Below, piece after piece: positions 14,668 to 58,017 of a DNA stretch of 64,000 bases (positions within the stretch are counted from its first letter, which is position 1; every line of letters begins with the position of its first letter). Source of the DNA: Clavelina lepadiformis (lineage: Eukaryota > Chordata > Ascidiacea > Aplousobranchia > Clavelinidae); the NCBI RefSeq assembly GCF_947623445.1, contig NC_135245.1:19475501-19539500 (forward strand). The letters are read 5' to 3'. The notes below the pieces were generated by a model. That model saw only the letters and a list, made by a program, of their open reading frames with translations, had not been told where the DNA came from and searched no databases. The position numbers and the translations under genes are program-made.

Positions 14668-14814
14668 CTGGCACACAGATAATACATGACGCAAGATAGC
14701 GGGCAGTGTTACGTTTATTCCATACCATAGGAATTTTGCGTTGGCATCTTGCAACCGCGGGAAATGGAAATACAGTCGTTTTTTACTATTCGTGTCAGTG
14801 TTTCCATTGAACAT
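14668..14814 (-). pseudogene. Orphan discoidin (F5/8 type C) C-terminal exon fragment
   Basis: Read on the minus strand, this stretch gives MFNGNTDTNSKKRLYF, then an AKFLWYG segment and NVTLPAILRHVLSVCQ. The last exon of the discoidin domain at 57880-58017 starts IFAGNTDTTSKKTTVFP and ends ALRLEYLSC, so the block FxGNTDTxSKK is shared. An AG precedes the ATG, as an acceptor would. No partner exons for the rest of a discoidin domain were found on either side, and the frame runs past the expected end. It is therefore more likely a relic than a working exon. Similarity is by eye only. Confidence 0.4.
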
Positions 14815-34260: not shown

Positions 34261-37200
34261 GAATGTCCCTTTTTGCTGCACTACAAAGTTTAACATTTCT
34301 ACACCAGGGGCGCAATGTGCGATGGTAATGCCGCCTGAACCGTAACCTACGATGCACTGGCACGCCGGCAACTTGTCGTCGGAAGCTTCCTCTCTCTTCC
34401 GTGTTTGTCTCATCGCTACTTCTTCTCATCGTCCCTCGTTGGTTACCAGCGCGCTCCTAACATTATAGCCTAATGCTCTGCCACTAAATATTGCTTTGGT
34501 TGGTTGGTTGATTGGTTGTTGGACTTCCATGAGACCTTAAAAGTAACACAATGGTCAACCCATGCTTACAAAGCAAAGCCATCACCCATGATTAATAGCT
34601 TGATACCAGCAATTGATTATTTTAATTCAGGAAACTAGTTGCTCAAATGAGACCTACCGATGGCGAGTTATAGCTGGGTTGAGGCCGCACCGCCAGTTTC
34701 TTGATATTGAACAAACTCTATCCAAGTTATTGAAGTGGAATTGAATGTTGGCAAAGAGTCTGAAACAATATTGTTATTATTAGTTGACGATCGAATACAC
34801 TTGCTAAAACTTTGAAGTAGCTTTTAATCGTAGATATGTGTCTAATAATTTCATTACTGTTTTGGTATAACCACCCACCACTGAATTTTTGTAGGGTCTT
34901 GAAGCTTGTGTAAGATGTCACAATGTTTGGGAAATGTGAAAATGTTTGGTTTATACGAGAAACTATCAGGGAAATGACCTGCAAGAAATTAAAACCAGGA
35001 ATGAAAATAAACAAATATCAAAACCGATTCTCGGGAAAAGCGATATTTAACATGGTGAGAATTAGATACGGGCCCAAGAAAGACAGTACATTACCACTTA
35101 CTATGGGCGTAACCACTATTAGCTACTGGTTGCACGGAAGTAGATGAAAGTGACTAGAAGACTTGGAACTTCAAAGTAGAACCTTCAGCTGATGGAAAAA
35201 ATATCTTGGGAAACGAGTATGAAAAAGTCTAAGTTTTATTTTCAGCAATAAAACAAACTCACCTGGGCTATAAATTATCGTAGGATGGTGACGACTCACA
35301 AAAGGGCAATGACATCATAGTTGTATTGTTGGCAATTATTAAGGCCCTGGAACTTTTATGAAATAGAAAAATTCCTAAAAATATTTACAACATACCTTGC
35401 AAATGTTAATGTTGTCGGAGAGTAGCCTATGCTTTACACGTCACCACTTGTGTCATCTGAAAAAGGTGAAATTTTGGTAACGTGACCGTAATGTTAAATA
35501 AAGCATAAAATACACCCCCAACACAATCTTACTGAATTGAACAAAGCCAACGCAGATTTCCAAGTTTCTATACTGCCTACATATACTTTAGTTCTGGTAA
35601 AAATCTTGACATCTTCAGTTCACAGCAAGAAATGTTCAGATTTGCAGATTCCAGATCAGCTTTGAGGGAACAATGTTCCATAAACTCCAGATGCCAGATA
35701 TCTCGAGCTCAAATTTTGAACAGAATCCAGAGAAACTGAACATATTTAAACTGAAGGTCACTGCATGGCCAGGACAAAATAAATCAATAACCACCAACAA
35801 CAACAAAAAAACAAAAAAACCAACAAAACAACCAAGAAAAACCCAAAAAAGTCACCAATTCACAGGCACCAAATATACTCTTTAACACAAACGGTACAAA
35901 CGCCAAAGCGCAGAAATGCAACAACAAAGACGCTAAAGCGCGCGCAGAGAGCAGCAGCAACAAAGCAGGAACTAAGGTTAACAACAAGAACATCGAAGTG
36001 TACAACAAAGGTCAAACAAATACCAAACTCAGCAACAAGCGCGAGCTGTGTTTCAGCATCAAACAAAATACAACTTGCGGCCCTGACCAAATCTCTATCG
36101 TTATAAAACAAGTCAGACAAACAAATATGAGCCTTTTCAAATATGAATCTTTTTAATATAAGGCAAGCAATGCAGTTTCAATTCAACATGGACAAGCTGT
36201 TGGACTTCAAACTGGATTACACTTGACTTTTTTAGTTGAGGCACGAAACTGAACTCCGCTTTATTGTAAATCCATTTCTCCTAAGCTACACCAACCAACC
36301 ATCTCAACTCAACTACACGAGGTAAAAGAATGGAATTTTGGAACGAACACGCGCAGTGAAAATTCGAGAAATCTCGCGCAAATTCCTCAGCTGATGAAAT
36401 AAGCGCGAAACTTGCTCCAAGGTTGACTCGAAGCAAATAGGTGCCAATTTCTTGCTGGAAAACTTGCCACAAGCTCTCCTATTGCTTAACAATGCGACAG
36501 CACTACACAATAATGTACTATATTGTTGTGAATTATGATTCAACTGAATCCTTTGAAACTGGTTTGAACGGAACAACGAAATGGTTTCCGAGTTTTCAAA
36601 GTATTAAAACGCTCTTGCTAACATTAAATGAAAGCCAATCTGACAAATTATTTAAGCATCAGAATGACGGTGCTTATATATATGGTATTTGCTAAAGAAA
36701 ATGTCCGCTAGACGATGAAGCGGAGCTGCACAACTGGCGCTGATTTATAAATGAGATAAAAGAATGACGGAGCAAAAGTTCCAGTTTTCGGTTTATTTGA
36801 TTAAAATTAGCAGTTAACCTTTAAAATTTTATTAAATATTTTAACTTTCGCCGAAGTCAAACCTGATGCTCTGTCTTTGGCTGCTGCTTCATAATCATAG
36901 CTGTTACGTCATTAACGATCAGACAATGTTTACAAATGTCATCAACAACTGATGCTTACAAATCACGTGACCTTTGTTGGAAATAGCTCAGATTACTCCA
37001 AACGACTGTGAAGTTGTCTCTGATGACGACTGATCCAGATGATAGATGATCTGATTTTGTTCCATCCGTAAATCGGTTTTGCTTCTAAACTCTTTTCGAC
37101 AATTTAATTCAAAATTTCTGAAGAGATAAGTAGAATGCTTTGTATGAAGAGCGATCAACTTCTCCGTAAAGTTTAAAGTCAAATTCCATTTTCACTCGGA

Positions 37201-38326
37201 TCCGCACATGGCAACGTACATGGCAACGCACAATGCAATGCACATGGCAACGCACAATGCCAGAATAATCCATACATGTAAGATTCTTAACAACAAAATC
37301 CTCGGAACGGTATCTCTTGCAGAAAGGAGTTTTATATTTTGGTGTTATTGCTTTTACGCGTTTCCGTTGGTTTCCATCGCTTCCCAACTAAGCGCAAAAA
37401 GGATGATTGTGAATGGACGTTTTTGGTATGAACATCGAAGGTGGAAAATACAACAAAAGAAAAGAGTACTTTTGAAATCTCTTTCATTTTAATCTGGTTA
37501 CTTTTAACGTTACATTCCCACAACTGTTTACACCGGAGATAAACTCACGCTGTGCAATAAAGCTTAAGCGTAATATGCGAATGTTCCATTAATCAACCAA
37601 TTTTCCAAAGCTGCTAATCACAAGCTTCTACATTTAAACAAATTGATTTTAATTTTTTCTGCTTGCACGACTGTTTATACTTATTATAGCCTACATCGTT
37701 TGTGGAGGATTCGAGCTAAAGGCACATTCAGTTAAGAAATTAAATTAAATCCATTAAAATGTTCTTTGTTTGTTCTTTTCATTACATTTTTTCTATTGTG
37801 CTTGTAGTGACGTCATTTTTTTCGTCATGATGACGTCGTGACGTCTTACTTACTCTAGCGGCGAGCAGAGCATACGGATAATAGCAAACGTTTATGTATT
37901 TGAACGAAAACTCCGGCTCCGCTACTATTTGCAACCACTCGTCTATTTGCACACCTTGTCCTTCATGCACTTGTCGCAAGCAACTACACGCCAGCGTGAA
38001 GTTCATGATTGCTTCGCCGTAATATGTGAAAAATATCGCAACGCGCTCATGGGAAAAGTGACGACACATCAAGAAAGTTGGCGACTTAGCACTGCAAAGG
38101 TGCTTTTACACGGAACTCAAAATTTGTACATTTTCAATTATTGGAAAGATTTTACATGCTACCATCGCGAAATGTTACTGCTTGTTAAATATTAAAGAAA
38201 GGAGCGTGTAGACGAATTTGCAGTTAATTTACATTCAGGCTACTGATTATGCGAGCCAGACAGGAAAACAAGAAATTGACATTTGGAAAACCGCCCGATA
38301 AGACAAATGTGCTTAAAATTTCTCCA
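34261..38326. other. Gene-free region downstream of the Ly6-sushi-VWA gene
   Basis: No coding exon recognised. It holds CAA-rich low-complexity DNA (35785-36010), a short repeat of CATGGCAACG units (37204-37264) and a cluster of CRE-like TGACGTC words (37807-37840). The hydrophobic minus-strand frame at 35784-36008 is only the antisense of CAA-rich DNA. Confidence 0.4.
37204..37264. repeat. Short minisatellite of CATGGCAACG(CACAATG) units
   Basis: Three to four direct copies of CATGGCAACG, alternating with CACAATGC. Confidence 0.6.
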
Positions 38327-41300
38327 CTAATGGTGCTCGGGTTCATCGTAGCAGGGGTCATGACAAACAGCATCAGAAAGTTCCATTGCAAAGTCCTCGG
38401 TCAAACTGGCAAAACCTTCGCGGAATACAAAGAGATGATTCTTCACGCCGACTATGCTTTCAAGCTGGTCGACGTCAAGTTTACCGCGCGAGGACTGAAC
38501 TCCAAGCGCAAATATCTGAAAATTATATATGTAGAGAGTTCTGTTACCACGTGAGAAATTTACTGGTAAAAATATTCATAGGTTACAAAACTCAGCTTGT
38601 ATAGTACGGAAGCCTATGACGCAACACTACGCGCCTATGACGCAACACAATAATTTCAGGTCGTTGCTTGCTTATTTAGAACTTTACCAGGACACCCTTG
38701 TTTCGAAGTTTCATCGCCGGCACCGCCACGTCATCCTGAGATTTTCCATCAGTCAGCACAATCACCACATCCTTTGCGTCTTCTCTGCTTCCCATACGTG
38801 AGGAAAATACTCTGTTCAGGGCGTACCTTAAAGCCCCGCCAGTATTTGTTCCTATGTCGCAGATAGAAGCCGTTAAGGTCGAAGGTCACGCTGGTAAATG
38901 CATACTAATGTCCATGACCAAGGCACTTACCGCTTCCATCATAAGGCATGGCTCCTATCTTATTCAACAGGGCGGCTTTGCCAAATCTCTTTCCGTAGTT
39001 GAATGGCACAAAACTCTTCCTATCAACTTTACTGTTGTACCGCATCACAGCAAAGCACGTACCGTCTTCCATGATCGCGTGCGCTCTGAAATGTCAGTGA
39101 AGTTGTTATTTAATGACGTCGTAACTACGTCATTATTTTGCTCTACCAGTTTAAGCTTTAACTTGCCTGACTATAGTTTGGACGAAGTTGACCATAATTC
39201 TCCAACTCGACAAACCGACTGACGACGACGAGTCGAGAATGACAAGCACATCCATCAGAGGGTTGTCAGGACAAGGCACTGCAATGAAACAAAGTAAAAA
39301 CTTTGACGCAACTTTTCACAAGGTTCAGATTATGCTTCAAAGTTCTACTGTAACAGCCGATTCCCGGGGATGCATTGCAGGTGATTCTGTTGGGACAAAA
39401 GCTTGTAATTTCCAGTATTGTTTCTATATATGTCGCATTTCGTATTTTAACCGAAGATCGCAAAGCTGTCGGCGCTCCGGCAAACACCGGTAGCAATGCA
39501 CTCCCACCATTTCCTTCAAAGCATCCGAAGTTGAACCTACTTGAGCAGCATGGCGTTATCTCCGACCAAGTTTGATCCACGAGACAGGTCGTTGTTGGTT
39601 CATGGAGAGGGGCGACTCTGTATTTTCCCAAGCAGGAGTAGGTACATTTTGAATCGACGAGCGCGTCCTCTGTACACGTCCAGTTACCGTTCGTCACAGG
39701 ATTCAATTCAGGGCAGAAGTTCCCTGTAAAAACAAACCGTTGACTTTAGGCGCCAAACGACAACGTTCAACGTCACAGGGACCATCAGGCGAGATGGTAT
39801 TCTACAAATAACGGGAAGTGATTGAATCTGCTCTATAAAGATGCGAAAAATATCGACTTACTTTCACAAACTGGCAGCAAGTTCGTCCACGTGGCGTCAC
39901 CTTCGACATTTTCAATGCAAGTGCTTCTTGATGACCCAATCAAGCTCGCAACTTCTGAGCATTTGAAATTACACGTGGAACCCACCGTGTCGCCATCGCA
40001 CTCGACGCTACCAAGGGGCAGAGTTAGCGGCGGACAACGCTCTGGAAAAATGGAGAAAATATGTCGAATTTTGAGAAACTTCTACGAAGTTGCTTATATG
40101 GCACTGGATAAAGATCTTTATGCAAGCAATAGTCATCGCATAGAAGAACTTGAGTCATTTACGTTTAAATATATTTTATGAAGTTTCTTGAATAATTATT
40201 CATTTTTCAAATACATTGCAATGGGCAAACATCGATAAAGTATGGCAGACTTGAAACATGAATGATGCCAATTTGCCGTTCGTGTTTCCCATGTTAATTA
40301 AGGGTTTTGATCACAGATATTTCAAAACTTACTTATGCAGGCTGGTATCTCCGCGGACCATCTTGTATTTCCGTCAAACTGCTCTTGACAAATTACTGTC
40401 TCGGACCCGATCAGACCATACCCAGGGTCGCAAGTAAACTCACAAAGAGTCGATGGCGTGTAAATCTCAGACGAGCATTGCGCCTTTCCACTTGCCAGCG
40501 TAAATCTCCGACAACGTTCTGTAAAAGAAGATTTTGCATCGTACAAAGTGTTTGCTGTTTCCTTGCCTGCGATTTTTAGAACAATTTTGATCTTAGCAAG
40601 CGAGTAAGAATGATACGTATATCGGGAGCTAAGCTTCATATGTAAAACGAATACAAAAGCCGAAGCAAAAAAAAAACATATATTTTGCTGAGTTGTTTGT
40701 GCAGGGTATACTACATCATAAATGTATGAAAAGATTGCAGCATGGACGGAAATGTTTACATTATGATTGTGTTTTCCATTATACCGTTGGTAGTTTCGCT
40801 TTGTGAATGCACAAAAGAACATCTCGGCTTTAAATTGGATAACTTATATAACTTTCAACTCACTTTCACAAATCGGCGGTGACGTTGACCACGTGGCCAC
40901 ACCTGCCTCATTCTCAATGCATATCGCACTTTCCTGACCTACCAACACTTCTGTTGGTGGACATTCGAAATTACAAACTGCTCCTACGTGGCCGCCATTA
41001 CAGGTGAGGCTTCCACTCGGGAAATAGAGCGACGGACACAATTCTATGGGTTATAAAAATTTATAAAAAGTGCTTTAAGAACATTTCTTTGCTTAATATG
41101 ATATAAGCTGTTGGCGCTCAAAATGAGCTCGTAATTGTATGTTAATATCGATGATTGAAAGAAAATCGTTCAGAGCAAGTTACTTTTGCAAAGTGGCGGA
41201 TCTTCAGACCAAGCGGCCATTCCTTTATCTTTATCTTGACAAGATGCGACTCTGGTCCCTACCAACTGGTAGTTGTCGTCACAGGAAAAGACGCAAAGTG

Positions 41301-44300
41301 TATCCACGCTTGGAGTAATGGACGTGCACACCCAATTTCCGTTGTCCATTTCGATTTGGGGGCAGTATTCTACGATAACGATGTTGTAACTGATTTACAA
41401 ATTCAGTTAAACGTATTTTGAAGCGTGTGTTGCAACATTTTCCGATACTATGAATTAAGTAACTAATTGCGTCTTATTGGTTCCAACACTTGTGCATCGT
41501 TGCACTTACTTTCACAAACCGGTGTGGCATTACTCCACCTTGCATCACCGAATATATTGTCAACACAAGCTGTCGCTCTTGCTCCGTTCAAAGTGTACAG
41601 CTCTTCGCAACTGAAGCGACAGACTGAGTCCAGCTTCTCAGTGTCGTCACACTCGACGAATCCGTTGTCAATATTTAGGACAGGACAAAATTCTAAAATC
41701 AAACACATCTACGTTTGTCTCAGAATGGGAATCTGAGATTAGGCCCTACTGTATTTGAAACAAAGTATAGTTTATCGTCTTTAGTCATGCGGAACCTGTT
41801 CAATGTTTAGCACAAGAAAGCAGTCCTTTGTTGGTCAGTGTACTTCGTTCATTTTACTCATCAATCGATTAACCATTCCAAATACTTAGTATATATATAT
41901 GGTTCTTTGATCACCTGATGCAGTCTTCTTAAAGGCGTACCAGCTTTAAGAACGCAACACCACTAAATTCCCACTGCATACCATACCCTGACACGAGATC
42001 AATAGTTACTCATGATAATTAATTACTTGTACACATCGGTGCAGCGCTGCTCCAAGCCGCTGTGCCGTCGGCCGATGCCGTGCATTCAATCTGCCGCTGT
42101 CCCGCCAAAACGAAACCGTTTTCGCAGTCGTAAGTGCAAACGGTGCCAAGAAAGTTAGAGTTAGTGCACGCCACGGTACCAGTAGGGAAATCCCCAATTT
42201 CGGAACAAATTTCTGCGGAGGAAATTTGTTCAAAGATTTCGCCATCGTAGTTAGGATGTTAGAGTTAGCTTTGCTACCGCACTTGTCACGTGGTTAGTAA
42301 AACACGTACAGTACAGGTTAGGTTATGTGCAAATGCAATACAATTAGTTCTACGTTGCGTTACGCGACAATCCATGATATGACAATCTCATATCATGGCT
42401 AAAACGCATTCAGTAAAAGGACTCCTACAATCTTGAAAGCAAAATAATACTTCACAGTTCACACACACACAGATGCCAACGTGCAAAAAACACGTGCTTT
42501 GCCATTCGGTTTTACTTTGGCAGTCTGCCGGTGAAGTGTCCCAGGCAACCTGTCCGTCTTTTTCGATGCAAGTCGCTTCATATTTTCCGACCAGGTCGAA
42601 GTCTCTTCTGCAATTAAAGCTGCAAGTCGCGCCCAGAACTTTTCCATCAAGACATTCGATCAAACCATTTTCGATTGGTGGGATTTCCGGACACTCTCCT
42701 GTGACGTCATAATCGCTGTTAGGCTAATGTGCATATAAATGATGTTTAGAGAAAGATAAATGTCATATCGATAATGGGCTTGGTATGAAATTTCGATCTT
42801 GATATATCTACAAGAACATAAATTCTCGTCTGAAATGTCATCTTTTTTGTGAATAAGCTTAGTTTCTGCCCTTAATGGAGTTGTAAAAATATCTCCCAGT
42901 TTAACGTCAACTGATTCTGATTCACCAAACTTTAAAATCTTTCTTTTGGATACCATCAGTATCGGCTTCAATATTACTTATGCCTTCAATATTGAATATT
43001 GATGTCTGTATGTTGTCATCTTTTTGCCAGTTGTTGCTGGGTTTTTGTTCTAAACTTATTTTAAGATTGTGACGTTCTAAATATTTTGGGGATTCCTCAC
43101 GTCGCGCGTCACATTGACAATTACAGACCGCTTATGATGAAAGATAAAACTTATTTTACCATATACAATAACATACAACCTGCTGATATCGTTTCAAAAT
43201 TTTAGATAAAGGTTGTCTCTACAAATATCTTACTTTCACAAGTCGGCCATTGAAAATCCCAGACTACTTTCCTTTCTTCGTCTTGCTTGCATCTCAATTC
43301 ATCATCTCCTATTAATCCGAATCCTGGACCACAACTTATCCGGCAAGTTGTACCCACTTGGACGCCTTGAGTGCAGTCCACCAAGGCATTCGGCATATCT
43401 TTGAAAGTCGGGCAAGTTGGCAAAATTTCTGCGGAATATCGTTTATTTAATGAAAACATTGACGCTACTGTGTGTCTCGCACTTAACAACCCACAGAACG
43501 TTTTTTAAACTCTGTAATGACGTTTTCAGAAATATTTCAACTTGCAAACGTGTTGTTCAATTAACCGTTTCCCGTGTTTTCGGTCGCATACACTCGAACA
43601 CTTGAGATCGTTTTGACTCACCTGTGCAGATGAATCCATCCCCGGAGTAACCTTCGTTGCACGAGCACTTGTAACTTCCGTGTGTGTTTGAGCATTGGGC
43701 GTTTCGGTCGCAGTTTGATTCCAGAGTGAAGCATTCGTCTTCATCTATTAAGATGGAGAGAAGGTTCTAAGTCAACGAGAGCACAAAGAGAAGAACTTAT
43801 GAGATGGTTTAATCAAGTGAAAAGGTTTTAACCTCGACAGCTTAGACCGTTCCAAACAAAACCGGCCTCGCAAACGCACGTGTAGTTTCCATCGGTGTTG
43901 GCGCATTGAGCGGTTTCGGCGCATTTGTGCGCGTTTGTCTTGCATTCGTCGATATCTGCGTTACAAGGGTCATCTTATGGTTGCATGTTATCAGGACTTA
44001 CTGTTCTTCGGTGATAACTTTGCCCTTTTTTAGCTTAAGTTTTTTTATAACCGTTTTGTAACTTTTTTCAACATGTCTTTAAATTTCCGGTTTTTTATAT
44101 GATTTCTATACCTTTACAAGCTGCGGCTCTGTTGTTCCACGAGGCAATTCCGGATCGGAACAAGCAAGTTGTACTGGCCGCTCCGTTGCGCCTGTATCCC
44201 GGCAAACAGGAGAAAGTACACCTCGATCCCCCTCTGTTTCTTCTAGTACATGATACCGCTCCATTGTCAGGCACTTGCATAATGGAGCAACGCGCGCTTC

Positions 44301-47300
44301 TGGCGATATCTTTGATGTGACATGACCGTGTTAAATGGCTTTAAAAGCGCTGGAGATCATTTGTGTAAAGCTTTCAATATGAAAAGATGTTTGCTATGAA
44401 ATTTTTTGTGTTTAAGATGCTTTTGTATTTTAACATCAACAATTTGCAAACAAGCCAAAGTTAACAATCAGTGAAATAGTTTGTTAAATATTTATTTTTT
44501 ATGTAATGTATTTTACTCCTACCGTATAACATAAACTTGGCCATGGTTTAAAAGAAACAAAGATGCTTTTCGCGAATTTGACGTAATTAAGTTTTTAAAA
44601 ACCAAACCAGTTAGTAGAATAAATCCAGTTTAAACGTGACTGCAATCACAGCGTGATCATGACATGATATTGTAACCTTTATGGCCGTTGTAAGCTTGTA
44701 CGACACAAACATGAAGATTTGTAGCGTGAAAAAATCTGTTGTTTTGTGGTTTTTGCTGAATGGCATGCAGTGAATATGTCATCAAACAATAATAACGTTT
44801 TGCTTTTGACGGTTATACTTTACGTAGCGCATTATATTATACAGTATACAGTCCTGTGTAACTTGTGCAGTCAGTTTTAAATTTTGTCTCCTACTGTACA
44901 TAGTGGCTCACGGAACTGTGCAGAATCACAAAATGTTACACATCAAAATCTAAAAACAATTTTATCCTTATAAGTTTCACTTACTAACGCATCGAGGTTT
45001 GGCGTGACTCCAGAAAGCTTGTCGTGCATTCACCAAACAAGTTGCCTGGTTTGTGCCAATAAGTCTGTTTCCAGGCTTGCAGCTGTACCTGTCAGAAGCA
45101 AGTTAGGACGAATTAATGGAATAGGATTGCAGTATATGTGAGTTCTGGTGATGATTGTACCAAACATTTACTCATAAGTTGAACCAAGTTGTTTTGGATA
45201 AATTCTAAGCAGATTGGTCGGGACCTGTATGCTAGGGATTGCAGTCATGGCCATAAAAACCGATAACATCCGTAGATCACGTGCGTATAGGCTGCAGGAA
45301 TTTCTGTTTTTACATATTTTGATAAGGTGAAATCTATCAAACTTTCCCATGCGAACAAAAGTTCTTTTCTCGCTTTATAAGCTACCTCGACGCGTCGAAA
45401 GATCGATTAGACGCTGTAAGTGAAATGTCACCCAAATGAGAGATTTTTTTATCGATTTTCATCGCAGTGGGTTTTGCTCATGGAGGCTGAATTACAAGTT
45501 CCATGAAACTGTTCCGGTGTTCCTACGTATAACGGGGCTAAAAACAGCAGATTGCCGTGAATTTGATTTTGCCGTTTAATAAGACATTTTATAATGCAAA
45601 GTATTTTTAGGAAAATCGCAAACATGGTCTTATCAGAATAGAACAACAAAATGCGAGAATAGAAGTTTTTTGTTATAATATAAGCCTCATTAATTATAAG
45701 CCCGGCAACTACATCGACAGACTACTCGCAATTTTACGGAGATAAAACCTTCGAAATACTTCCTGGCTACAACCGATTTGCCCGCGGTGTAACAAGGACG
45801 TTAAAAGCATAAAATAACATCAAATTAAAGCAATCTTTTATCACTTTATCAATGTTGCAAAAACCAATATGGCAGACGTAGCGTAAACAAACGCAACAGT
45901 GCTGTCACGCAAAATCTGCTCTGCCGGGATCGGGGCCATTTTTATAAGATGCTTTAATCGAGAGTTACGTCTGAGTTATAATCTATGGCCCCAAACGCCC
46001 CGTTTTGAGTAATGCTTGGTAACTTTAACATTTCTTGTATAGAAATATAAACGTATTCACTAATTCATTGAAAAAAATGCGCGTTTGAAGTTATTGTTTA
46101 CAGTTTTTTGATCTGACGTAAAGTTTATAACACAGTAACATAAATTTACCTTCTAAAATATTTCTTATGTCAATTAAACCTTAAACATAAAAATTTAGCT
46201 TTCTACGTGCCCATTCTCCCAACCTAACCGACAAAAACTTTAACAACAGGCTGCATAACTTATACATATGGTGAAATATTCACTTTCTGTATCAAAAACC
46301 GCCGATTGTCGAATGTCGCTAAAAATTTCAAAATTCTTGTTTTAAATTTTTTTGAAACTTTTCGATCATTTTTTGAACTAAAACAAAACTTTCCGGCGAC
46401 CGCTTACCAAAGACATTGTATTGATGAATTCTTGTACTACAACTAACTCCAAGTGTGTGTTCCACGGCTTAAATAAGCAATCACCAAAATTAAAGTTTTT
46501 GTGAATTTTCGAAGAGTTATTACAATGTATAGACTATGTTATCATATGGTATTACGCGATATATTGTAGGACTATGCTATTTATGTATTGTTTCCCTATA
46601 GTCTATACAATCGTAAAACCCGCAAAAACCACGAAATTTAAAACGTTTTCGACCAAAAAACTACGACAAGTTTTACGACCATACCAACATGTTTTAACTT
46701 TGTTTACATAATAATTAGCGACCCAGCTATTTCTTTATGAGTGATATGTCGATATTACCAGTAAATGATAACTGATCAACGCTAATATGTTCGTTATTTT
46801 GCCTGCAGCGTGTACGCGCGGGCCTAAATCGTGTTTCCATGCTGAGGTTTAGGCCAAAAAAAAGGTTTTGCAAAATTTTAAACTGTTCGAAAACCGTATT
46901 TTGGAAGAATATTGTAAATTTTCAAACCTTAACTCTTCACTGTAATGTTTGTGCAAGTTCTTTTGAATCGAAAAATGACCAGATACTTGCTCAGTCCCAC
47001 AAATGCAATCTAGCCGGCCATTCAACATGTTTACTTTGAACCAAACAAACCTGCAAGTGCTTCGAGGTGCGTTTGCTCGTGTGCAGGAGACAAGGCCGTT
47101 TACCAGGCTGGTGTATTCGTTGGAGCACGTCTGTTGCGCGCAGGTTGGAGGGACCCCGGCCCATAAACCACTTTTTCCTGCATAAAAAAAAGACAGAAGT
47201 TTTGTAAAACAGAAATATCAAAGGCTCATGATGTAATAAGGTCCCTGTTTACGTTTTACAGATTACTGAGCTATGACATCATCGCAACGAGGGTGCCTTC

Positions 47301-49765
47301 ACCTGGGGCAATAATAAACAAATAAAGCTTAGGTTTTGTGGTAAACAAATATATTCGGTCCGCAAGTTTAGCATCCAAAGCATGTGGGTTGCTATACATC
47401 GGAGTTTGTTCGTTATTTTTCGGTCTTCAGGTATCAGAGCGTGTGACATAACGTGACACTAAACTTTTGCAGCTGCTACAATACATACGCGAGTGGTGTA
47501 AGTCAACGACTCTGACAGATGTGAACCAATTGTAAAAACTAACACGCAGCTTAAAATATCCCCAATTATACCCACTGGGGGACGAACTACGCTTTTGTAG
47601 AAGATGAGCTTGCCTGACGGCCATTATCAAGTATCATGTGTTTAGTGATAAAATCAGGGATCTTTTGCTTTGAATTTGACTCCTGGATTTGTGTTTATTC
47701 AGCATCGGGTATACACGTCATGGTACCGACCCTCAAATAGATGCTATTTCTATTCAAGTCTGCTCCACCAGATGGAAGTTTCCAGACACAGTAAACTATA
47801 AGTAAAATGTCAAGTGGAAACATGACGGGGTGTGACGTGATACAAGACGCCAAATGGTTTCTGCTTACTTATTGACGTCATCATATTTTCATCACATTAC
47901 ATATTAAAATGAAAGCAAGCACGATGAATAGCTCGGTAAGACTTATAATTTGACCACACGCAACGCATCATGTTCTAAGGAGAATTGACTGGAAAACTTG
48001 CCGTTTGCGCGTCCACCAAAGAGCCGCACGTCTGACACGACGCAAAGCGAAGCGGTTACTAGTAATGGTATCCTTTTGTTTACGCGAAATTCGAACTGAA
48101 GCACAAACTTCAAGAAGCGTTTCCGCTTAAAATCGCGTCCTTTCTCACCCCTAATCGACCTCTTAATTAAAGATAAAACAATTCAAGGAACTTACGGCAG
48201 ATCAAAGACTCCTCTCCGCGCAATACGTAATCCCTGTCGCAAGAGAAAACGCATCTGCTCCCTGGGAAGTTGTTATCGGAGCATCTCACGCTTCCGTGAA
48301 AAGGATCAACAAGATGAGGGAGACAGGTTCCTCCTCTGGAAGTCAGATCGTCCGTGAGGACTTGATCCGAGAAAGGAAGCGGCCTCGGAAGAGCTGAAAT
48401 TTCGCCAAATCATTGTTGAAACATAAGCACTAAGTAGACAATTGCGTTTAATTGAATTGGAAGATGAACATCTTGGGAGCCCAAATGAATGAATATTTCA
48501 ACACTTTCTGGTTTCAAACTGTTTTTAAAGCGCTTTCTGGTTTGTTGTCTTGTTTTACTCTGATGTAGACTTGTAACTGATTTTAATGTAAGAACAATTT
48601 TAAACATTCTATGTTCAAACCGTCATAATGATGTATATTCAGTCGTAAAACCAACGGCGAAAATTTAAACGATTAACAAACGATTCTTAAGAACGGTGTT
48701 GTCCGTGCATTAGACAGACAGACAGACAGAAACATATTTTCACATATTTTACTTCTGTCGAAATTTCCTCTTGTTCCGTCAGAGAATAAACCTTGACTTC
48801 CTTCACGCGATGGAAAACAACTCAAACCTCCTCTGTTGCATCCGTCTCCGTCACAGCAGCAGTAACATTTGGAATTAGAAGGTTGAGACTCACAGAACGC
48901 CTGTTTTTATCACAACAACGGCCGTGACTTTTCAATCAAAATCGGTTGAAATTTTTCGTGATTTACAATCCCTTGTATTAAAAATCCGCTGATTTTCAAG
49001 CACTCACTAATCTTATATTATTGATGCAAGCACTTCTTTGTTTGCATCCTTTTGTGATGTGTTTCCGCCCATTGTCTATCACCCTGATCTCTGTCTTGCA
49101 TGCGTCCTGCGTTTCAAGACATTACGATTAGCCAACATTAACTCAATGCGCCTTATTTTAATTAGACAACGACGGATTGATTTTTGTAAATTTAAGTGGC
49201 TTTTGTTGTAGTCAAAAGACCAAAATCCAAGGTAATAGTAAATTCTTAACGGGACACCGGTGTAAAAACTTTAACTTTGACACTTACACTTTGGCCCGTG
49301 CACGTTTCGTTTCTTCCGATCCTTTCACATTCATCGTTCGATGCCGCATTTTCACATCGAAGACAAACCAAACCTGACATAAAGACATATGCGTGATATC
49401 ACCAACAAGAGAGCTCGTTTCAAACTTGATGGTTTATTTTTTGAAAATTTAAAGCTTTTGACTTAAAAGTACAAGCATTCTTATTGTTTAGAACATCCAA
49501 AGGAATCGAATCGCAAAAGAATTGAACAACTAAAAGCTACAACAACAAAACCACTTCGCAATTTTATTTGAGAGGTTTATGGAGATTTTCAAAATCACCG
49601 TTGGCGCGCAATAATTCTATAAAAATTTAGAGCTAAACAGTTTACTTGATTGTTGCGGTTATTATAGAAAAACTTCTTAAGAGCTGCCCTTTCGTTTTCT
49701 TTCTTACCCTTGCATGTCGGGATCAACAACGGAACAAAAACCACAAAAGTTATCAACGTTTTCAT
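38327..49765 (-). CDS. Secreted Ly6/three-finger, sushi, EGF, sushi, VWA protein; 23 exons, 1181 aa
   Basis: Exons in order: 49708-49765, 49288-49373, 49008-49106, 48753-48900, 48196-48393, 47051-47177, 44985-45088, 44112-44309, 43833-43955, 43622-43744, 43234-43428, 42516-42698, 42027-42212, 41510-41692, 41184-41369, 40864-41043, 40333-40518, 39862-40041, 39541-39723, 39167-39278, 38931-39085, 38688-38851, 38327-38515; total 3546 nt. Residues 1-19 are a signal peptide. A three-finger domain follows (GLVCLRC to CYCCCDGDGCN, about 20-103). Then come three sushi domains (two of them shared over exons 5-7), two calcium-binding EGF domains (DIDEC near 340, DEDEC near 381), nine single-exon sushi domains flanked by phase-1 introns, and a VWA domain from 976 with MIDAS DSSSS near 991 and VLTDGKS later. 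No membrane span or GPI signal is seen, so it is probably secreted. SVEP1-like proteins share the sushi/EGF/VWA modules but not the Ly6 start or this order. Start: the Met that directly opens the signal peptide. Confidence 0.9.
46526..46609. repeat. Inverted repeat (about 12-bp stem) in an intron of the VWA gene
   Basis: The arms TGTATAGACTAT and ATAGTCTATACA lie about 60 bp apart. It could be a worn MITE; no target duplication was identified. Confidence 0.4.
48711..48729. repeat. Microsatellite (CAGA)n
   Basis: About four and a half copies of CAGA, just beyond the donor of the fourth exon of the VWA gene. Confidence 0.6.
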
Positions 49766-51857
49766 AATTTTCTTCGGTAACAAATCACACAACATAAGTC
49801 TCTGCTCTTTCAATTGGCTTCTCATGTTAAAACATTCTGTTAAAAACCAAATTTTGCCAGGAAGCATTTTTTTCTGGTTTTAGGGCCTAAAACAAATTTC
49901 CGGGTAGACTAGTACCCCCCCAGGCCGTTGCTAGGAACCGCTGTTTTTGGCCAAAACACGGTCTAAAGATCGCATTTGGGGCCATTACGGTAGAACGTCG
50001 CGATGTTAAAGTCTCTCAGGCTAATTGTTGTCTTAAGCAGAAGCTTTTCTCTTTCGTTTTTGAAAGTAAATTCGTAAAATCACCGCCAGCGTCGTACCGA
50101 GACAGATTGATAATATGTTACTGGAACAAAAGCATAAAATAAAAAAAATAATCCTGTAAAGTCCCTTTCGTAGGCTATAGCTTTTCAGATAGTCGGAAGT
50201 ATTTCAAAGTCACAGCTTTGAATTCGTTGAAATTTTACGTCGTTACAATTTGTTGGTGATTTAATACGATTTCATTCATTTTAATTCTATCAAATTGACA
50301 TTGCTGTTTTAACGAAAAGATTACTAAAAGCACGTTAATGAACCAAACCAATTTGATAAAACCAAAAGATGTAAAAGTGAACTTCGCATTATTCGAAGTT
50401 TAGTTTACGCTGAATTAACCACTCGATGGTTGCAATCACCATGTTTCAAACTTTTATCAAACTGTTTTTGCAATTATAGATTTTAATCTATTAGCTCAGC
50501 TTGGCTTAACCTTATCTTTATCTTACAGATACTTAAACAACGGGGACATTCAACCTCTATAAATGCATATTCCAGACGTTCTGCTGTAACGGCATTACTG
50601 CATATGCGTTTGTGATCGTTGTAAAAATAAATATCTTCAATTGGCGATGAAAATCACAATAATTGTGCATCAATGTGTTTATTACAGATTCGATCAAGAA
50701 AAGGAAACTTAAAAACGTGAGGTTGACTAAATCTCGAAAAAACGCTGACATTTGATCTGTGCGAGTTCATCAGCCCAATTGTAGATCACAACATACAAGA
50801 TCAGAATACTGTTTCATAAAAATGTCACATCTGAACTTTTTTAGACAAGTGTTTAAGTTTTGTTTGACCTAAGCAGCTTTGAGACCTGTTTTCACAGAAC
50901 CATATTTGTCAGATTTTTAATCTGAGTAAAACGATCCTGTTTAAGCTATTCTTTACTGACACCTAGTAGGCTGATGATGTCAACATTTACAAAAAGTCTA
51001 TGAGTGGTCTTGTTTACGTGTGTACGAGCAAAATGCACATTTAGGCATTTCAAAAAGTATTTTGTTGTCAATACATTTCTTTAGAAAACGGTGATTCAAG
51101 AATTCGTATTTTCCAAGCAACATTCTACTGTTCATGAAACCAATCATGCGATTTGTGATTTGGATGAAATAAAAATTGTGTTTTTCTGTGTTAAATTGTG
51201 TTAAAAACATCATAGGATTTTGAAGCTTCAAAACGTATAAATATTTTGATTTTATTTATAAAACCACAATCGTTTATTTCCTGGCGGACCATCCAAGCCT
51301 TGATTTCAGTAAACAGAGCATAAAGATGCATAAAGCATAACAAAAATAAAGATGAATTCTAATTTGAAAACATTTAGAAGTGCCAATTATTCACAAAATT
51401 AATTTCATCATTTTCTACTTAACGTGTTTGTATATTATGCTCATGATGTTCAGCCTTTATATACTTTCATAAATTCAAGTTCAAGTTCTTTCTAAGGTTG
51501 GCTTTGTGTCAGCGACCCAACCACCATCGAAGATTAAAATGCCGCAAATCGACGATTTTCTTTTAAGTCAGTCAGCGCTTGTGCTTCAAGTTGGTCATCT
51601 CCCATCTTAATCCGTGATTAAGATTTGCCCGAGTTATTTTTCACCTCGAATCCGGTCCAAACACATTTTAAGCTCTCACAAAACCAGTTTGATGAACTTC
51701 CAAGATTTTGTGACGTTTGATCGTTTGAAGCACGTTTTGAAGTTATTAGTTCGGCTGATCAAAACTCAATCGACTTGAAAAGCGAAGCACTCGTGGTTCA
51801 TATAACAGCAACTAAAGGTTTCCGACTTGGGGGCAATTATTGTCTTTATAAACCGCG
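49766..51857. promoter_or_regulatory. Shared spacer between the two divergently transcribed Ly6-sushi genes
   Basis: 2.09 kb between the two start codons must hold both promoters. A TATA-like TTTATAAA lies at 51845-51852, close to the plus-strand start codon. No coding exon was seen. Whether control elements are shared cannot be read from the sequence. Confidence 0.55.
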
Positions 51858-54800
51858 ATGTTTTGCCGGTTTGTTCATCTCATGGTGTTGTTACTGTTTG
51901 CGGATATAAGCCAAGGTAAGGATTTGTGACCTTGTTTCAGTGAAGTTGAAAATATTCATTAATAAATATATGATTTGGAGTGATTTTTCGAAATATTAAG
52001 AGGTAATTATGAAAAGCATGTAAAAGTTAGTATACGATTACCATAATGCTTTTTCTAAGCTTTTATTTTACCATAAAATATAACTTTTACTAAAACACAA
52101 ACTTTTATTAAACCTTTTACTGCTTTACATTCGCTTCGCTGTTCAGAAAAGTAATTTTATTTGAATAAAGAAACATTTTTGGTGTTTTAATTTGGAAACT
52201 ATGTTGTCTATGTATGTTATTCTCTTAATCATATGTGTTCATTATTTTGTAATTGCATCAAAGTAGCATGCCGGATAAAAACATCTCCAAAACTTGAAAA
52301 TTTGAGCGAATAAATTAGGTTTTTTGTCTTAAAATCATGTATTTACGCTTAACATGAAGTACTTGTAAATATGGATTCTAGAAATGATTGTATTAACTGA
52401 ACGGTGTCAGGTATAATATAAATTTAAATAATTAGCTTATACAGATTTTCATCCCAAAGACAACATTGAGTATCTATATAATGTCGTCGGAATTTGTGAA
52501 GTAATATTAAAAAATTGTTAAATATTCTCCAGGTTTGGTTTGTCTACGATGCACAAATGCGCCCTCACACGAGCAATGCGACAAAAGCGCTCAACTTCAG
52601 CTTTGCACCGGGATCAATGTGAGCAAATCTGTCAAAACATAGCATTTTCTTCAAGACCTAACCTCTGTAGTTATTGGTTTCTAAAGATTGTTGAAAGAAC
52701 ATGGAAAAATGCACTACATACAATTTGCATGTATAATATACATATATACTGTACATATAATGTAGGCTACACATAAAGTTTTGTGATATTTAACCGGCTA
52801 CCAGAAGTTGATTGCAACTTTTCTTTGTGGCGAAAAGTATTATTTTTTTCTGTGACATTGTTTAAGCTTATCGTTGTAAGTATACCACTGATTCAAGTTG
52901 GACAAATATATTTCGAGCTATTAAAATTGTATTAGACTTAGTTAAATTTTGACCCAGTTAAAGTTTCTTACATGACGGCAACTTAAACTGCCGGGTTTTA
53001 ATTTTTAATGAGTGGAAAGTGATTTGGCCAATTTTATTAAGTATTCGTGTAGAATTCCCCATTTCATAAACACTTGGGCATATTTCATACCAATTAGCGC
53101 GTTCGAGTTAATGCGATTAAAGTATAAACTTTCTCGGCGATTTCAGAAGATTGTTTTGAAAACAAATAGTTGGAACCTTGAAAAGGCTTATCTTAACCTA
53201 TAGACTAAAATACCTTTCACGTTATCTAATTAAACAATATTTCTTGAAAGCGGGAATTGAGTTCAACCAATTTACTTTCTCGCTTGTCCATTGTGTAGCA
53301 AACGCTACAAATAATTGCTTTCAGTTTTACTAGAAACGTTATCTTTTTCATATAATTTTCTGTAACTGTAAATCATCGACGTAATTTTTTCGTATTTACC
53401 ACCATAAATGTGGCATTTATTTCAATAGGACGCGTGCGCTACCGCGGTGAGGACGGATTGGTCAGGTGGCCAGAGAATAACCAAGTCATGCAAACAGAGA
53501 CTCGCGTGCATGAATCAGCAGAATGTGGTGAGATTTTAGTGTAATATCGTACAACGTTTCAACTGGGTCTTCGTCGAACTATAAGCCTATCACAAAACGT
53601 GTATCAATGTTTTGAGGAAAGTAAATACCTTTTTAAAATGAGCGAACTTAACCGATGAATCTTGTATCTAGTTGAATATCTCAGTAAATTTAAAAGTATA
53701 CTTTGGATTTTCTTAAATAGAAATACTGCTCCATGCCTCGTCCGGTCAACAAAGTCTGCTTCTGTTGCTGCGACAAGGACCAGTGTAATATGGGGAACAG
53801 CAGTTGTACGCAGGGCGAGCTTGGGATGTACGGTGACGTCAAAGAAGAACTTGGCACCAACGTTAAACTGGAAAACACCGAATCAGGTTTGAAGCGAGAC
53901 TTTTCGCGATTTCCTTAATCTATTTTTATTGGTGATGTCTTTTGAGTAGTGATATATCAGACTTATAAAGATGAAGTAATTATTAACAAATATGAGTTAA
54001 CAGTGCCCAATAAATCACATGTTTACCAATTTATGCTCGGGTCATGCATATATTACAATAACGTCAAACTTCATACAACTATGTATCATTTTGTTCAGAT
54101 AAGCTTTACACTAAACGACGCATCAAATCAATTTCGAGGGCGTTATAACACGCGTATGCGTCGTAGGAAGAGCACAGGCGCCTATAGAAGTTGTATGATG
54201 GTTGTATACCTTGAGTCCAACCTATCTAAAAGTGTTATAAATCGTCTGATCGTGATGGAATTTCAGTTCTTCCACGCCACGCTATTTTAGTCTAAACTCA
54301 TGTAGAATTTTATAATCCTTACATTTCTGCTGCATGAATATACGTTAATAGTTAATACCATAAACATTTCAATAAAGAAATCCTGATTGATCTTTAAGGC
54401 TCGCCACAATGTGTTGAGCCGAAGCAAATAATACCAGCTTAAAAATACACTTCTGTGTGCTTGAATCACAGCCTGTCTGCCACCTCCATCCATCTTGCAC
54501 GGAACAACCTCTCGTTCTAACTCCGGCTCCTTACTTTTCGCCAAGGATTCCAAGGTGATGTACGAATGCGAGGATGACTTTGCTCTTGTTTCTGTGATGG
54601 GATCAAGCGTCACCGTTTGTAAGGAGGATGGAGCGTGGAGTTTGCCGTTCGGGAGTCTTCCCAGTTGTAGAAGAAGTATATTCATTGCTTTGCACAGGGT
54701 TTCTAGATGCTTTAAAATCTTCATAACAGATAATGTATAAGCATAAGTTTATCACTGAACGATTTTACTTAGACCGTTCTCAAGCAACTAATTTTGTTAT

Positions 54801-57800
54801 AACATTTTTTATTCTACGCTCAGCCTGTCCAACGCCACCGTCGATCGAATTTGGTTTCTTGATGCCACTAGAGCGAGCCACGCCATACTTTGAAGGTGAC
54901 CTGATCGTTTATAAATGCAATGATGGATTTGAAATAAATGGAGACTTTGTCGGAGTCTGCCAGGCTGATGGATCTTGGTCTTTGGCCAAACTTCCATTCT
55001 GCGGCGGCGGTGAGTAAACTAAGATCTCTTTGTAGCATTTTTACTCTCGATTTTTGATTCCAAGGGTTGATGTTGGTTTTAGAACCTTGAGAAAATTTGA
55101 AACAATATTTTCTATGAATGTTATGTATAATATTTATCTATTCATAGCATAAACTCTATTTTCATTTTATAAAGCAGTCTATTTTTGTGTGATGTTTAGT
55201 ATGTCATCATCCGCTCCCACTTGAAAGAGGAAAAGTCTCGAACCCCAATCCATCCAGACCATATTTGGAAAAGGACAACGTCATCTACATTTGCGACGAC
55301 GGTTACAACCTGATTGGACCAAGTGTAAGCACCTGTCAATTAGACGGCCAGTGGAGCGTGACGGTGGAAAATTTTCCTGAATGCATTGTTGGTGAGTTTG
55401 TCTGGAAAGAGTCCTTACAGAACAGACACAGAGTCCTATGTTAACGAGACACAGAGTCCTTACAGAACAGCCTTATTAAACCACACATCAACAACGTGTT
55501 TACTGTGCAGACTATAACAAACGCTATGATTTGTTGTAGGTTGTGGGGAAAAACGAAAACTTAAAGAAGATTATATCAGTGCAATGTTTACATGTTAGCA
55601 AATTTAGTGTTATGTGTTTTAATCTTCGGTTCATTTAGCATTGTCTGCATCAGAATGACGTATCCTGTGTGGCCGATGATTCCAGGCCGAATCAACCAAC
55701 GGACGATCAAACCCAAAACGGCTAAACCCAGGATGACCCAACTAAAATCTGTGGGTTGAATAGCCGTTGAGTTTGATCGTACGTTGATTGAGTTGTCCGA
55801 CCTTGACTTAATGGCTTTGCACTTTTAAACGCCGCTCAACTGGTATAAATTGGAACGAATCCGGCTGCAAATGCTAACTTCTCATTGTTCTTTATAGGAT
55901 GCCCGGAGCCGATGACGATAGATCACGGGAAGGTGATGGAGAGGCATCCACCTCCTCCTCACTTCCAAGGGGATCAGGTCTCTTATCACTGCGATGAGGG
56001 ATTCCTCCTTCTCGGCTCCAACATCAGCACTTGCCTCGTGGATGGCTCCTGGAGTTTGAGAGGAGTTGATCTTCCGGTGTGCAAGAGAAGTAAGTCACAG
56101 TATATGAAGGTATAGCATGAGACGCTGAACAAGCGCACAAGAGCAAGTGTAGCCTGTTTATGTGTACGGCAGAATATGTATTTTATTGCTTGAATATTGT
56201 GTAGTCTAGTTTATTAGATGCATGAGGCTTAGATGAAACTACTGTGTTTTAGTCAAAGGTTAAGCTATCAAAAGATGTTCATTGAGGCAGATGTTGTAGA
56301 TCTATAATGATTTCGCATAAGCAAATTTTATCCTATTTTCAAAGCTTAGTCAAGGGAATTAAATGGATTAATTGCAGTCATTGATGAACGTAACATGTGA
56401 ATAAAATCTTTAATCTTTTGTCCAGCTTGCCCCAAATATCCGATGCTCGCCAACGGTCAACTCATAAACCGTAAAATCGTGGAACCCTATTACGAAACTG
56501 AAGAAATCGCGTTTGCGTGTGACGATGGTTACGTTCTAAACGGCCCAGATAGCACGACCTGTCAATCAAACGGAGATTGGGATTCACAATACGGGGTGCC
56601 CTGGTGTAGAAGAAGTATGTTTGAGGGCTACAGTAAATTTACAAGCTGCGTATTGAAATATATGCTGAAAATAATTAATAAACGTTTTTGGTAACTATAC
56701 TTCGCCAGCCTATCACAAAACAAATCAATAATTTGACAAATGTAAATTCAGTGAATCACTTCGTAAGTCAGGAAATGAGAAATGTCGAACATAACAGAAT
56801 CTTTCGATGTTTCTCCTGCGAGTTTAAAATGTAAGGAACTATTTTTCAGTCTGTCCAGATCCGAAGCAAATCGCACACGGGTCTTTTAAGGACCAGCATC
56901 CCCCATTACCATATTTGGAAAACGAACAGATTGTTTACTTTTGTGACGACAAGTTCGTATTAATCGGACGTAATACCAGCACATGCCAGGCTGATGGGAC
57001 TTGGACGCTGTCGAGAATGGACACGCCATCTTGCGAGTGTAAGTAACAACCGGTTTTCAGGATAGAAATTTTTAGCTTTGGGACTGTTCCAGAACTCGAT
57101 ACATCAGGTATTAAGACCTATCGTCGACAGATAAACGTTTAGTTAATTTCTTGCTGATAATGTTTTAGCGATTACATCATGATGGTTCTTCATGATTGAA
57201 AATGCAACGTTTATAAAAAAACTCTTAACTTTAAATAAGTAAGAGCTAGAAACATCAAGCCACTTATTTTTTCAGACACTCACTGTCCGATAGGGATCAA
57301 GGAAGGGAAAGTACCAGACAAAGCGATGACTGCCTCGTCATACTTCTACAAAGGCCATGAAGCTTACAGGGCCAGGTTGGAAAATCAAAAGAGTCACGAC
57401 CACATTGGTGCCTGGATTCCACGACGAAGTATAAGTCTGATTATAAATTCCTGATAAAAAAATTTAACAACATTTCATTTATTTTTAACGAGCTGTCTTG
57501 TGAATTTTACAACCACCGAAATCTTAATTCCAGACTTAATTGGGGAGTGGCTCCAAGTGGACTTAGGCTACCCCATGAAAATCACCGGGGTTATGACGCA
57601 GGGCAGGCCGACTGACATCCCAGCCTGGATCACAAGCTTCAAAATATCATACGGAATTTCCCCGGACCGGATGCAGATGATCAAACGCGGCGGAAGGGAC
57701 GTGGTGAGATTTTGTTATGACGTCGTATTCTTTTAACTAAGTAACTCAATCTGCGTTTTGTGCGTTTACCTTAAAACGCTTACGTCATCAACTCATGGTA

Positions 57801-58017
57801 TCCTAACATGCCTAATCTGACGTCATGTAGACAATTTTACCTCCACGAAATTCATCCATTTTTTACAATACTTTTTCAGATTTTCGCTGGAAACACTGAC
57901 ACGACCAGCAAGAAGACGACGGTATTTCCAACTCCCGTATTAGCGAGATACATACGGTTGGTTGTCCGCTCCTGGCAAGCTTTTATAGCTCTCCGCCTAG
58001 AATACTTGTCCTGTTGA
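51858..58017 (+). CDS. Secreted Ly6/three-finger, 6x sushi, discoidin (F5/8 type C) protein; 13 exons, 673 aa
   Basis: Exons: 51858-51915, 52533-52618, 53429-53527, 53721-53886, 54472-54675, 54824-55009, 55200-55391, 55898-56089, 56426-56614, 56850-57038, 57276-57428, 57534-57703, 57880-58017; total 2022 nt including the stop. Residues 1-19 are a signal peptide. The three-finger domain runs from GLVCLRC to CFCCCDKDQCN. Six single-exon sushi domains follow (about 137-520), each with four cysteines and flanked by phase-1 introns. A discoidin domain of three exons closes the protein (about 521-673): MTASSYF and HIGAWIP, then EWLQVDLG, then a final ALRLEYLSC. No membrane span or GPI tail is seen, so it is probably secreted; discoidin domains usually bind membrane lipids or glycans. 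Exons 1-3 equal those of the divergent neighbour in length and phase, so the two are paralogues at their 5' ends. The start was chosen because it opens the signal peptide and gives the same 58-nt first exon. Confidence 0.9.
55687..55795. repeat. Fold-back repeat in an intron of the discoidin gene
   Basis: The arms 55687-55730 and 55752-55795 are imperfect reverse complements of about 44 bp sharing ACGATCAAAC and AACGGCTA, with a 21-bp loop. It is probably a MITE remnant. Confidence 0.6.

Follow-up and report, generated by a model that had tools for sequence, protein, structure and literature searches.

Two head-to-head Ly6-sushi genes of the ascidian Clavelina lepadiformis and the larger gene family to which they appear to belong

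Architecture of the gene pair

The window analysed here is a stretch of 64,000 nucleotides from chromosome 6 of Clavelina lepadiformis (contig NC_135245.1, positions 19,475,501 to 19,539,500). Two genes, referred to below as A and B, lie in it head to head, and each starts with a signal peptide followed by a three-finger (Ly6-type) domain spliced from exons 2-4 (hereafter TFP). Both gene models could be retained as the initial annotation had drawn them, since all 23 and 13 exons, respectively, join in phase and end exactly where proposed (Table 1). Gene A encodes 1181 amino acids without an internal stop, and its introns follow the GT-AG rule save for one GC-AG donor at exon 20. The product of gene B has 673 amino acids, again with no internal stops, and every intron is of the GT-AG type. 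Pfam recognized 12 sushi domains, 2 EGF domains and a VWA domain in A, and 6 sushi domains plus F5_F8_type_C in B.

The beginnings of the two genes are built alike. Exon 1 (58 nt, ending in phase 1), exon 2 (86 nt, starting with GLVCLRC) and exon 3 (99 nt, starting with DAC) have the same lengths and phases in A and B, and a fourth exon, also left in phase 1, completes a CxCCCDxDxCN motif in both, so that phase-1 introns bound the TFP exon set of either splice model. In a single comparison 51 of 119 N-terminal residues were identical (E 8e-31). After exon 4 the genes differ, as had been annotated: Pfam places sushi, EGF and VWA domains in A and sushi and discoidin domains in B. Beyond the signal peptides, a hydrophobicity scan of A and B found nothing like a membrane span, and both products are therefore taken as secreted.

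The assignment of these N-termini to the three-finger domain class is statistical; it holds at the level of profile comparison and falls short at the level of Pfam. With the TFP alone as query, UPAR_LY6_2 scored 28.1 bits for A (E 2.5e-6) and 15.8 bits for B (E 0.017), below the curated cut-off of 31.5 bits. A profile of 17 TFP sequences, on the other hand, reached solved Ly6/uPAR (LU) domains in the PDB, namely LYPD1 (3e-10), LYPD6 (2.3e-7), LYPD6B (1.5e-6) and SLURP1 (0.0037). The cysteine framework ends in CC...CN; 12 cysteines are invariant across the 17 TFPs, and the final N is present in at least 90% of them. A genome-wide probe with UPAR_LY6_2 gave 3 weak matches only, probably because the TFP is split over several exons. 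Statistically, exons 2-4 of A and B are thus predicted to encode an LU domain of the LYPD1/LYPD6 kind. The resemblance to LYPD1/LYPD6-type proteins comprises a cysteine pattern ending CCC..D.CN, the phase-1 exon set and the profile match. The difference lies in the context, as LU proteins are described in the available part of PMC6600238 as mostly single-domain or LU-only, whereas the Clavelina TFP heads long sushi proteins.

The VWA domain of gene A (residues 985-1151 of 1181) has retained the residues of the metal ion-dependent adhesion site (MIDAS; DxSxS, T, D). Among the best 60 of 104 PDB matches its nearest relatives are collagen VI, the byssal protein PTMP1, the integrin alpha-2 I domain and the VWF A domain; those of the F5/8 type C domain (F5/8C) of gene B are factor VIII/V, neuropilin and lactadherin. 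The position of sushi domains beside a VWA domain, as in factor B, would also suit complement-type proteins built on the factor B/C2 plan. Complement factor B and C2 carry a serine protease after the VWA domain. In gene A the stop codon ends exon 23, directly following the VWA domain, no protease was matched by Pfam, and the 60 listed of the 104 PDB matches do not include factor B. We consider a complement plan very improbable, and the identification of A as complement factor B was rejected, as no serine protease follows its VWA domain.

Table 1. Features of genes A and B in the window (SP, signal peptide)
Feature	Position	Strand	Evidence
Gene A: SP - TFP - 3 sushi - 2 EGF - 9 sushi - VWA	38327..49765	-	splice model, phases consistent; Pfam
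A exon 1, signal peptide, 58 nt	49708..49765	-	splice model; hydrophobic maximum at residues 4-22
A exon 2, TFP part 1, 86 nt	49288..49373	-	splice model
A exon 3, TFP part 2, 99 nt	49008..49106	-	splice model
A exon 4, TFP part 3 with CYCCCDGDGCN and tail SCFPSREGSQGL, 148 nt	48753..48900	-	splice model
A exons 5-8, sushi 1-3 (sushi 1 and 2 each split between exons)	44112..48393	-	splice model, Pfam
A exons 9-10, two EGF domains	43622..43955	-	splice model, Pfam
A exons 11-19, sushi 4-12	39541..43428	-	splice model, Pfam, module comparison
A exons 20-23, VWA with MIDAS residues DSSSS, T, D	38327..39278	-	splice model, Pfam
Intergenic, start codon to start codon, 2092 bp	49766..51857	.	inverted homology not above chance
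Gene B: SP - TFP - 6 sushi - F5/8C	51858..58017	+	splice model, phases consistent; Pfam
B exon 1, signal peptide, 58 nt	51858..51915	+	splice model, hydrophobicity
B exon 2, TFP part 1, 86 nt	52533..52618	+	splice model
B exon 3, TFP part 2, 99 nt	53429..53527	+	splice model
B exon 4, TFP part 3 with CFCCCDKDQCN, 166 nt	53721..53886	+	splice model
B exons 5-10, six sushi, one per exon	54472..57038	+	splice model, Pfam
B exons 11-13, F5/8 type C (discoidin) domain	57276..58017	+	splice model, Pfam

TFP-headed loci across the genome

The survey of related loci covered one C. lepadiformis genome and one haplotype; PMC10884593 also names an assembly of the alternate haplotype. The nucleotide pattern TGYTGYTGYGAYN9TGYAA, which represents the CCCD..CN signature, gave 13 matches against 1 for the reversed control, and the signature is therefore not a product of chance. 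Judged by eye, 10 of the 13 are of the family type. A match at C9:6.24 Mb (C9_6.24, stretch L038) was dropped because by eye it resembles the three-finger domain of TGF-beta/BMP receptor ectodomains, and those at C4:17.64 Mb and C7:16.87 Mb because their frames are unlike the family. Protein searches of the genome with the TFP of A, of B and of a third gene returned 42, 26 and 71 matches. Those with E < 1 (40/42, 25/26 and 65/71), together with the ten pattern matches entered at a nominal 0.01, cluster into 35 loci, defined by a best E <= 0.01 or by two pieces, plus 9 single weak ones; the 35 include weak loci such as C2:26.15 Mb (E 0.0056, internal stops). A phase-1 acceptor precedes the TFP at 19 of 21 loci.

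DNA was read around 26 TFPs, and for 22 of these the stretch extends at least ~2.7 kb downstream. Sushi exons on the same strand follow the TFP in 19 of these 22 genes. All matches to sushi (99), VWA (28) and EGF (16) profiles in 22 stretches outside the window, among which that of C9_6.24 gave none, fall on the strand of the TFP and 0 on the opposite one; these profiles derive from family genes and hence are not independent of the family. Of the 35 loci, 17 have a same-strand VWA exon no more than 13 kb downstream, and 0 have one there on the opposite strand (57 VWA matches); a downstream VWA was also found at 4 of the 9 weak loci.

The full order TFP - sushi - VWA occurs at ten loci, i.e. 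gene A and nine others (C1_9.57, C1_24.555, C3_5.20, C3_7.77, C4_7.31, C6_19.615, C6_2.25, C6_2.26 and C9_2.68); at C4_7.31 the TFP pieces come from the protein searches and lie just beyond the stretch read, and at C3_7.77 the VWA evidence is one piece (E 0.002) at the stretch edge. The VWA domain of A aligns with those of these loci in similar blocks (approximately residues 1-38, 38-90, 90-145 and 145-199). The last sushi domain of A ends with a double cysteine, as does the last sushi of other family loci, and every one of its six best matches is likewise the final sushi detected at some other locus. Judged by its sequence, gene A is an ordinary member of a TFP-sushi-VWA family.

The proposal that one N-terminal module was placed before different effector modules with matching intron phases is thus borne out for A and B and, by co-linearity, for many more loci, the phase-1 TFP exon set adjoining at least six kinds of partner domain. 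At one place (L050, C7:15.3195-15.3235 Mb) TFP, EGF, VWA, EGF and a second TFP lie on one strand, with a TFP between modules rather than at the N-terminus. At another (L045, C8:226001-227000) somatomedin-B-like segments flank the TFP with E 4.7e-7 and 0.003, of which the latter does not reach the cut-off. A piece of stretch L041 that looks like a C-type lectin had no Pfam match and is not claimed as a partner.

Several points weigh against so broad a family. Three of the 22 TFP genes (C5_14.27, C7_15.323 and C8_0.226) have no sushi in the stretch read, C7_15.323 being a TFP with EGF and VWA and C8_0.226 a TFP with somatomedin-B-like pieces. C4_4.77 and C3_7.77 had been chosen for sushi domains already listed nearby, and if they and the window pair are set aside, sushi follow the TFP in 15 of 18. 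For VWA, the limit of 13 kb was fixed with the coordinates already in view, and a same-strand VWA also lies upstream at 7 of the 35 loci, which reflects tandem clusters. Splice models cover A and B, and the other loci are judged by order, strand and spacing; we infer that the modules at each of them are spliced into one gene. The opposite possibility, that the Ly6 exons form separate short genes merely upstream of sushi genes, would suit C5_1.73, where the first sushi found lies ~2 kb away from the TFP. However, in both A and B exon 4 has an in-phase donor before any stop, and order and strand are constant at many loci, so that separate genes seem extremely improbable. Taking these points alone, we are highly confident that A and B have the domain orders given in Table 1 and that both belong to a wider family.

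Relationship between genes A and B

The initial annotation regarded A and B as closest paralogues that had arisen by inverted duplication. Comparison with a tandem pair on chromosome 3 (C3:22.834 and 22.845 Mb; chr3a and chr3b) does not favour this view. The pair has a close TFP, with a tail of exon 4 like that of gene A, followed by TSP1, VWD, TIL and sushi pieces (Pfam on pieces), and its synonymous sites are near saturation (2.8 synonymous substitutions per site, TFP). Trees were built from 17 TFPs and leave out about nine others, including those of C6_2.24, C1_9.57, C6_13.70, C6_19.615 and C7_15.32. They unite A, B and the chromosome-3 pair in one four-gene group (90/81, in a tree whose bootstrap had not settled, and 91/90). 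In the best trees A joins the chromosome-3 pair (84/87 and 84/80) and B, on a long branch, stands outside, giving the order (B,(A,pair)). With a reduced TFP set the three-way split of A, B and the pair stays unsettled. When A and B are constrained to group, the trees lose 4.6 to 6.8 log units, with p values of 0.235, 0.148 and 0.049 in the approximately unbiased test, which disfavours this grouping without excluding it. Exon by exon, A shares 14/29 residues of exon 2 with each of B, chr3a and chr3b, 16/33 of exon 3 with B and 18/33 with both chromosome-3 copies, and in exon 4 20/46 with B, 23/49 with chr3a and 25/49 with chr3b.

At the DNA level 11 inverted matches were found between positions 48000 and 54500 of the window. 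Only two run from exon to exon (exon 2, 52 nt, 79%; exon 3, 39 nt, 72%), and the other nine measure 18-23 nt. DNA homology of A and B is thereby confined to exons 2 and 3, with none in introns or promoter beyond short matches, and the 10 inverted 11-mers between the two start codons are at the chance level (7.1 +/- 5.4 in 200 random sequences). The sushi domains were compared as well. None of the 12 modules of A has a module of B or of the chromosome-3 pair among its six best matches (87 others compared), whereas the best matches of all six modules of B are B's own or those of the chromosome-3 pair. By this comparison the sushi arrays of A and B are of different lineages.

A recent inverted duplication is thus not upheld, as only exons 2-3 match and the sushi lineages differ; an old one is possible. 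In such an event the start of a TFP-bearing gene would have been duplicated locally in inverted orientation, the chromosome-3 pair would later have descended from an A-like copy, and A and B might share a divergent promoter. Their head-to-head adjacency with 2092 bp between the start codons speaks for it, as does the four-gene group, and the order (B,(A,pair)) is compatible with it. The confinement of DNA homology to exons 2-3 and the separate lineages of the sushi arrays count against it, and we regard it as a tentative option that falls short of an even chance. The pattern is a mosaic: A combines a head like that of the chromosome-3 pair with a stalk of the general family, and B a related head with a stalk like that of the pair. 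Exon shuffling fits this mosaic better than one duplication. A history specific to the pair is therefore not supported, and the real finding is the wider family.

Parts of gene A also recur elsewhere. Positions 38124-41289 of the window (3.2 kb, introns included) have a 92-94% identical copy at C9:10.617-10.620 Mb, and shorter copies of the 3' end lie at six further places on chromosome 9 (91-93% identity). Counting itself, the flank past gene A (36000-38330) gave 40 matches in the genome. Chromosome 9 accounts for 19 of these, and only at the seven places just named does the match continue to the end of gene A. Beside the end of the long copy is a stretch repeated ~40 times that, by eye, resembles part of a retrotransposon pol gene. 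The TFP protein searches of the genome gave no TFP at the seven chromosome 9 copy places. As sushi-VWA or VWA ends of gene A have been copied within the genome, such copying is a plausible source of new combinations.

Elsewhere in the window, positions 14752-14814 (minus strand) might hold a remnant of a last F5/8C exon, a weak match of 57% over 21 amino acids to the last exon of B (E 0.43). By eye, open segments at 5177-11506 (minus strand) are like exons of NADPH-cytochrome P450 reductase, and 60051-60314 (minus strand) resembles a claudin-type membrane protein.

Proposed function and relation to known systems

Based on these observations, we suggest that A and B are two members of a large C. 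lepadiformis family of secreted multi-domain proteins. These would be built from an LYPD1/LYPD6-like TFP head, a sushi stalk and, at the C-terminus, a domain for adhesion that is usually VWA. Shuffling through phase-1 introns may have set the TFP exons before sushi arrays, and the tails would have been exchanged later, for F5/8C in B, for TSP1-VWD-TIL on chromosome 3 and for EGF or somatomedin B elsewhere. The proteins might act as secreted linkers, in which the TFP head binds one specific partner, the sushi chain serves as a spacer, and the VWA or F5/8C tail anchors the molecule to matrix, cell surface or glycan. We favour a role in matrix or adhesion, in the tunic, stolon or body wall, although we put it at about an even chance, and the explanation as a whole, adhesive function included, is for us an equally balanced proposition. 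It counts against it that the function is assigned by domain analogy.

These proteins could alternatively form a recognition system, i.e. a blood or allorecognition family in which the TFP head or the sushi array is the variable ligand-binding part, by a logic like that of Botryllus fester/FcoR. The family is large, both tandem and dispersed, and tunicate recognition genes carry sushi domains according to the accessible part of PMC12065747. Three tandem TFP-sushi copies on chromosome 6 (L033-L035, C6:2.235-2.265 Mb), two of them with a VWA in the stretch, bear on this question. Their sushi arrays are mosaic-like, and the selection figures for these arrays were set aside, since the modules pair badly across them. 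The TFPs of copies 2.25 and 2.24, the most similar pair, differ by 7 synonymous and 0 non-synonymous changes over 98 codons, a result that tells against strong diversifying selection on this pair. Exon 2 of the TFP has changed faster than exons 3-4 between copy 2.26 and the other copies; against copy 2.25 it shows 14.2 non-synonymous and 2.8 synonymous changes, which would also fit a recognition loop, counts against the adhesive role and keeps recognition as a candidate. Recognition is also opposed by the lack of any Ig match (Pfam) or membrane-like span in A and B and by a VWA domain nearest to matrix and integrin types among the best 60 of 104 PDB matches. A blood-borne role in recognition thus appears rather unlikely, and a matrix or adhesion role remains the one preferred.

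Among known proteins, SVEP1/polydom has an N-terminal VWA domain and a pentraxin domain. Gene A resembles it in combining sushi, EGF and VWA modules and differs in its C-terminal VWA, its TFP head and the absence of a Pfam match to pentraxin. Botryllus fester/FcoR, in the passages available from PMC12065747, are likewise large sushi-bearing tunicate families, but with Ig domains and membrane spans, both of which A and B are without. The house proteins (oikosins) of Oikopleura are secreted matrix proteins with CCP, VWA, TSP1, VWD and EGF domains (PMC3390340, main text); the likeness is one of domain content, and the terms Ly6 and uPAR are absent from that text. No TFP head on fester/FcoR or on Oikopleura house proteins is mentioned in the passages of these two papers. 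Those obtained from PMC10962819, PMC12212465, PMC8495957, PMC9953650 and PMC13409769 mention sushi proteins, and the last also three-finger proteins, without a TFP-sushi fusion. No description of a TFP-sushi family was found in the portions of the open-access literature covered, although such genes may be annotated elsewhere, e.g. under SVEP1-like names.

A review of 2019 held, in the part available, that the LU domain is probably no bona fide mobile module (PMC6600238). The TFP loci of Clavelina, as read from their sequences, appear to argue against this view for C. lepadiformis, with many loci and at least six kinds of partner as an apparent counter-example. We would give roughly equal weight to either side of the broadest claim, namely that in this aplousobranch the Ly6/uPAR domain is a true mobile module, set at some three dozen loci as the usual head of sushi stalks, the tails of which are interchangeable (VWA, F5/8C, TSP1-VWD-TIL, EGF, somatomedin B), and that these loci make up a modular secreted adhesion or recognition system undescribed so far. 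When, and whether, the LU domain became mobile is a question that can now be put directly to other tunicate genomes, and the family offers tractable secreted proteins for probing tunic adhesion or immunity. Our results suggest that a domain held to stay mostly alone became, in this species, a component that can be reused in large secreted proteins.

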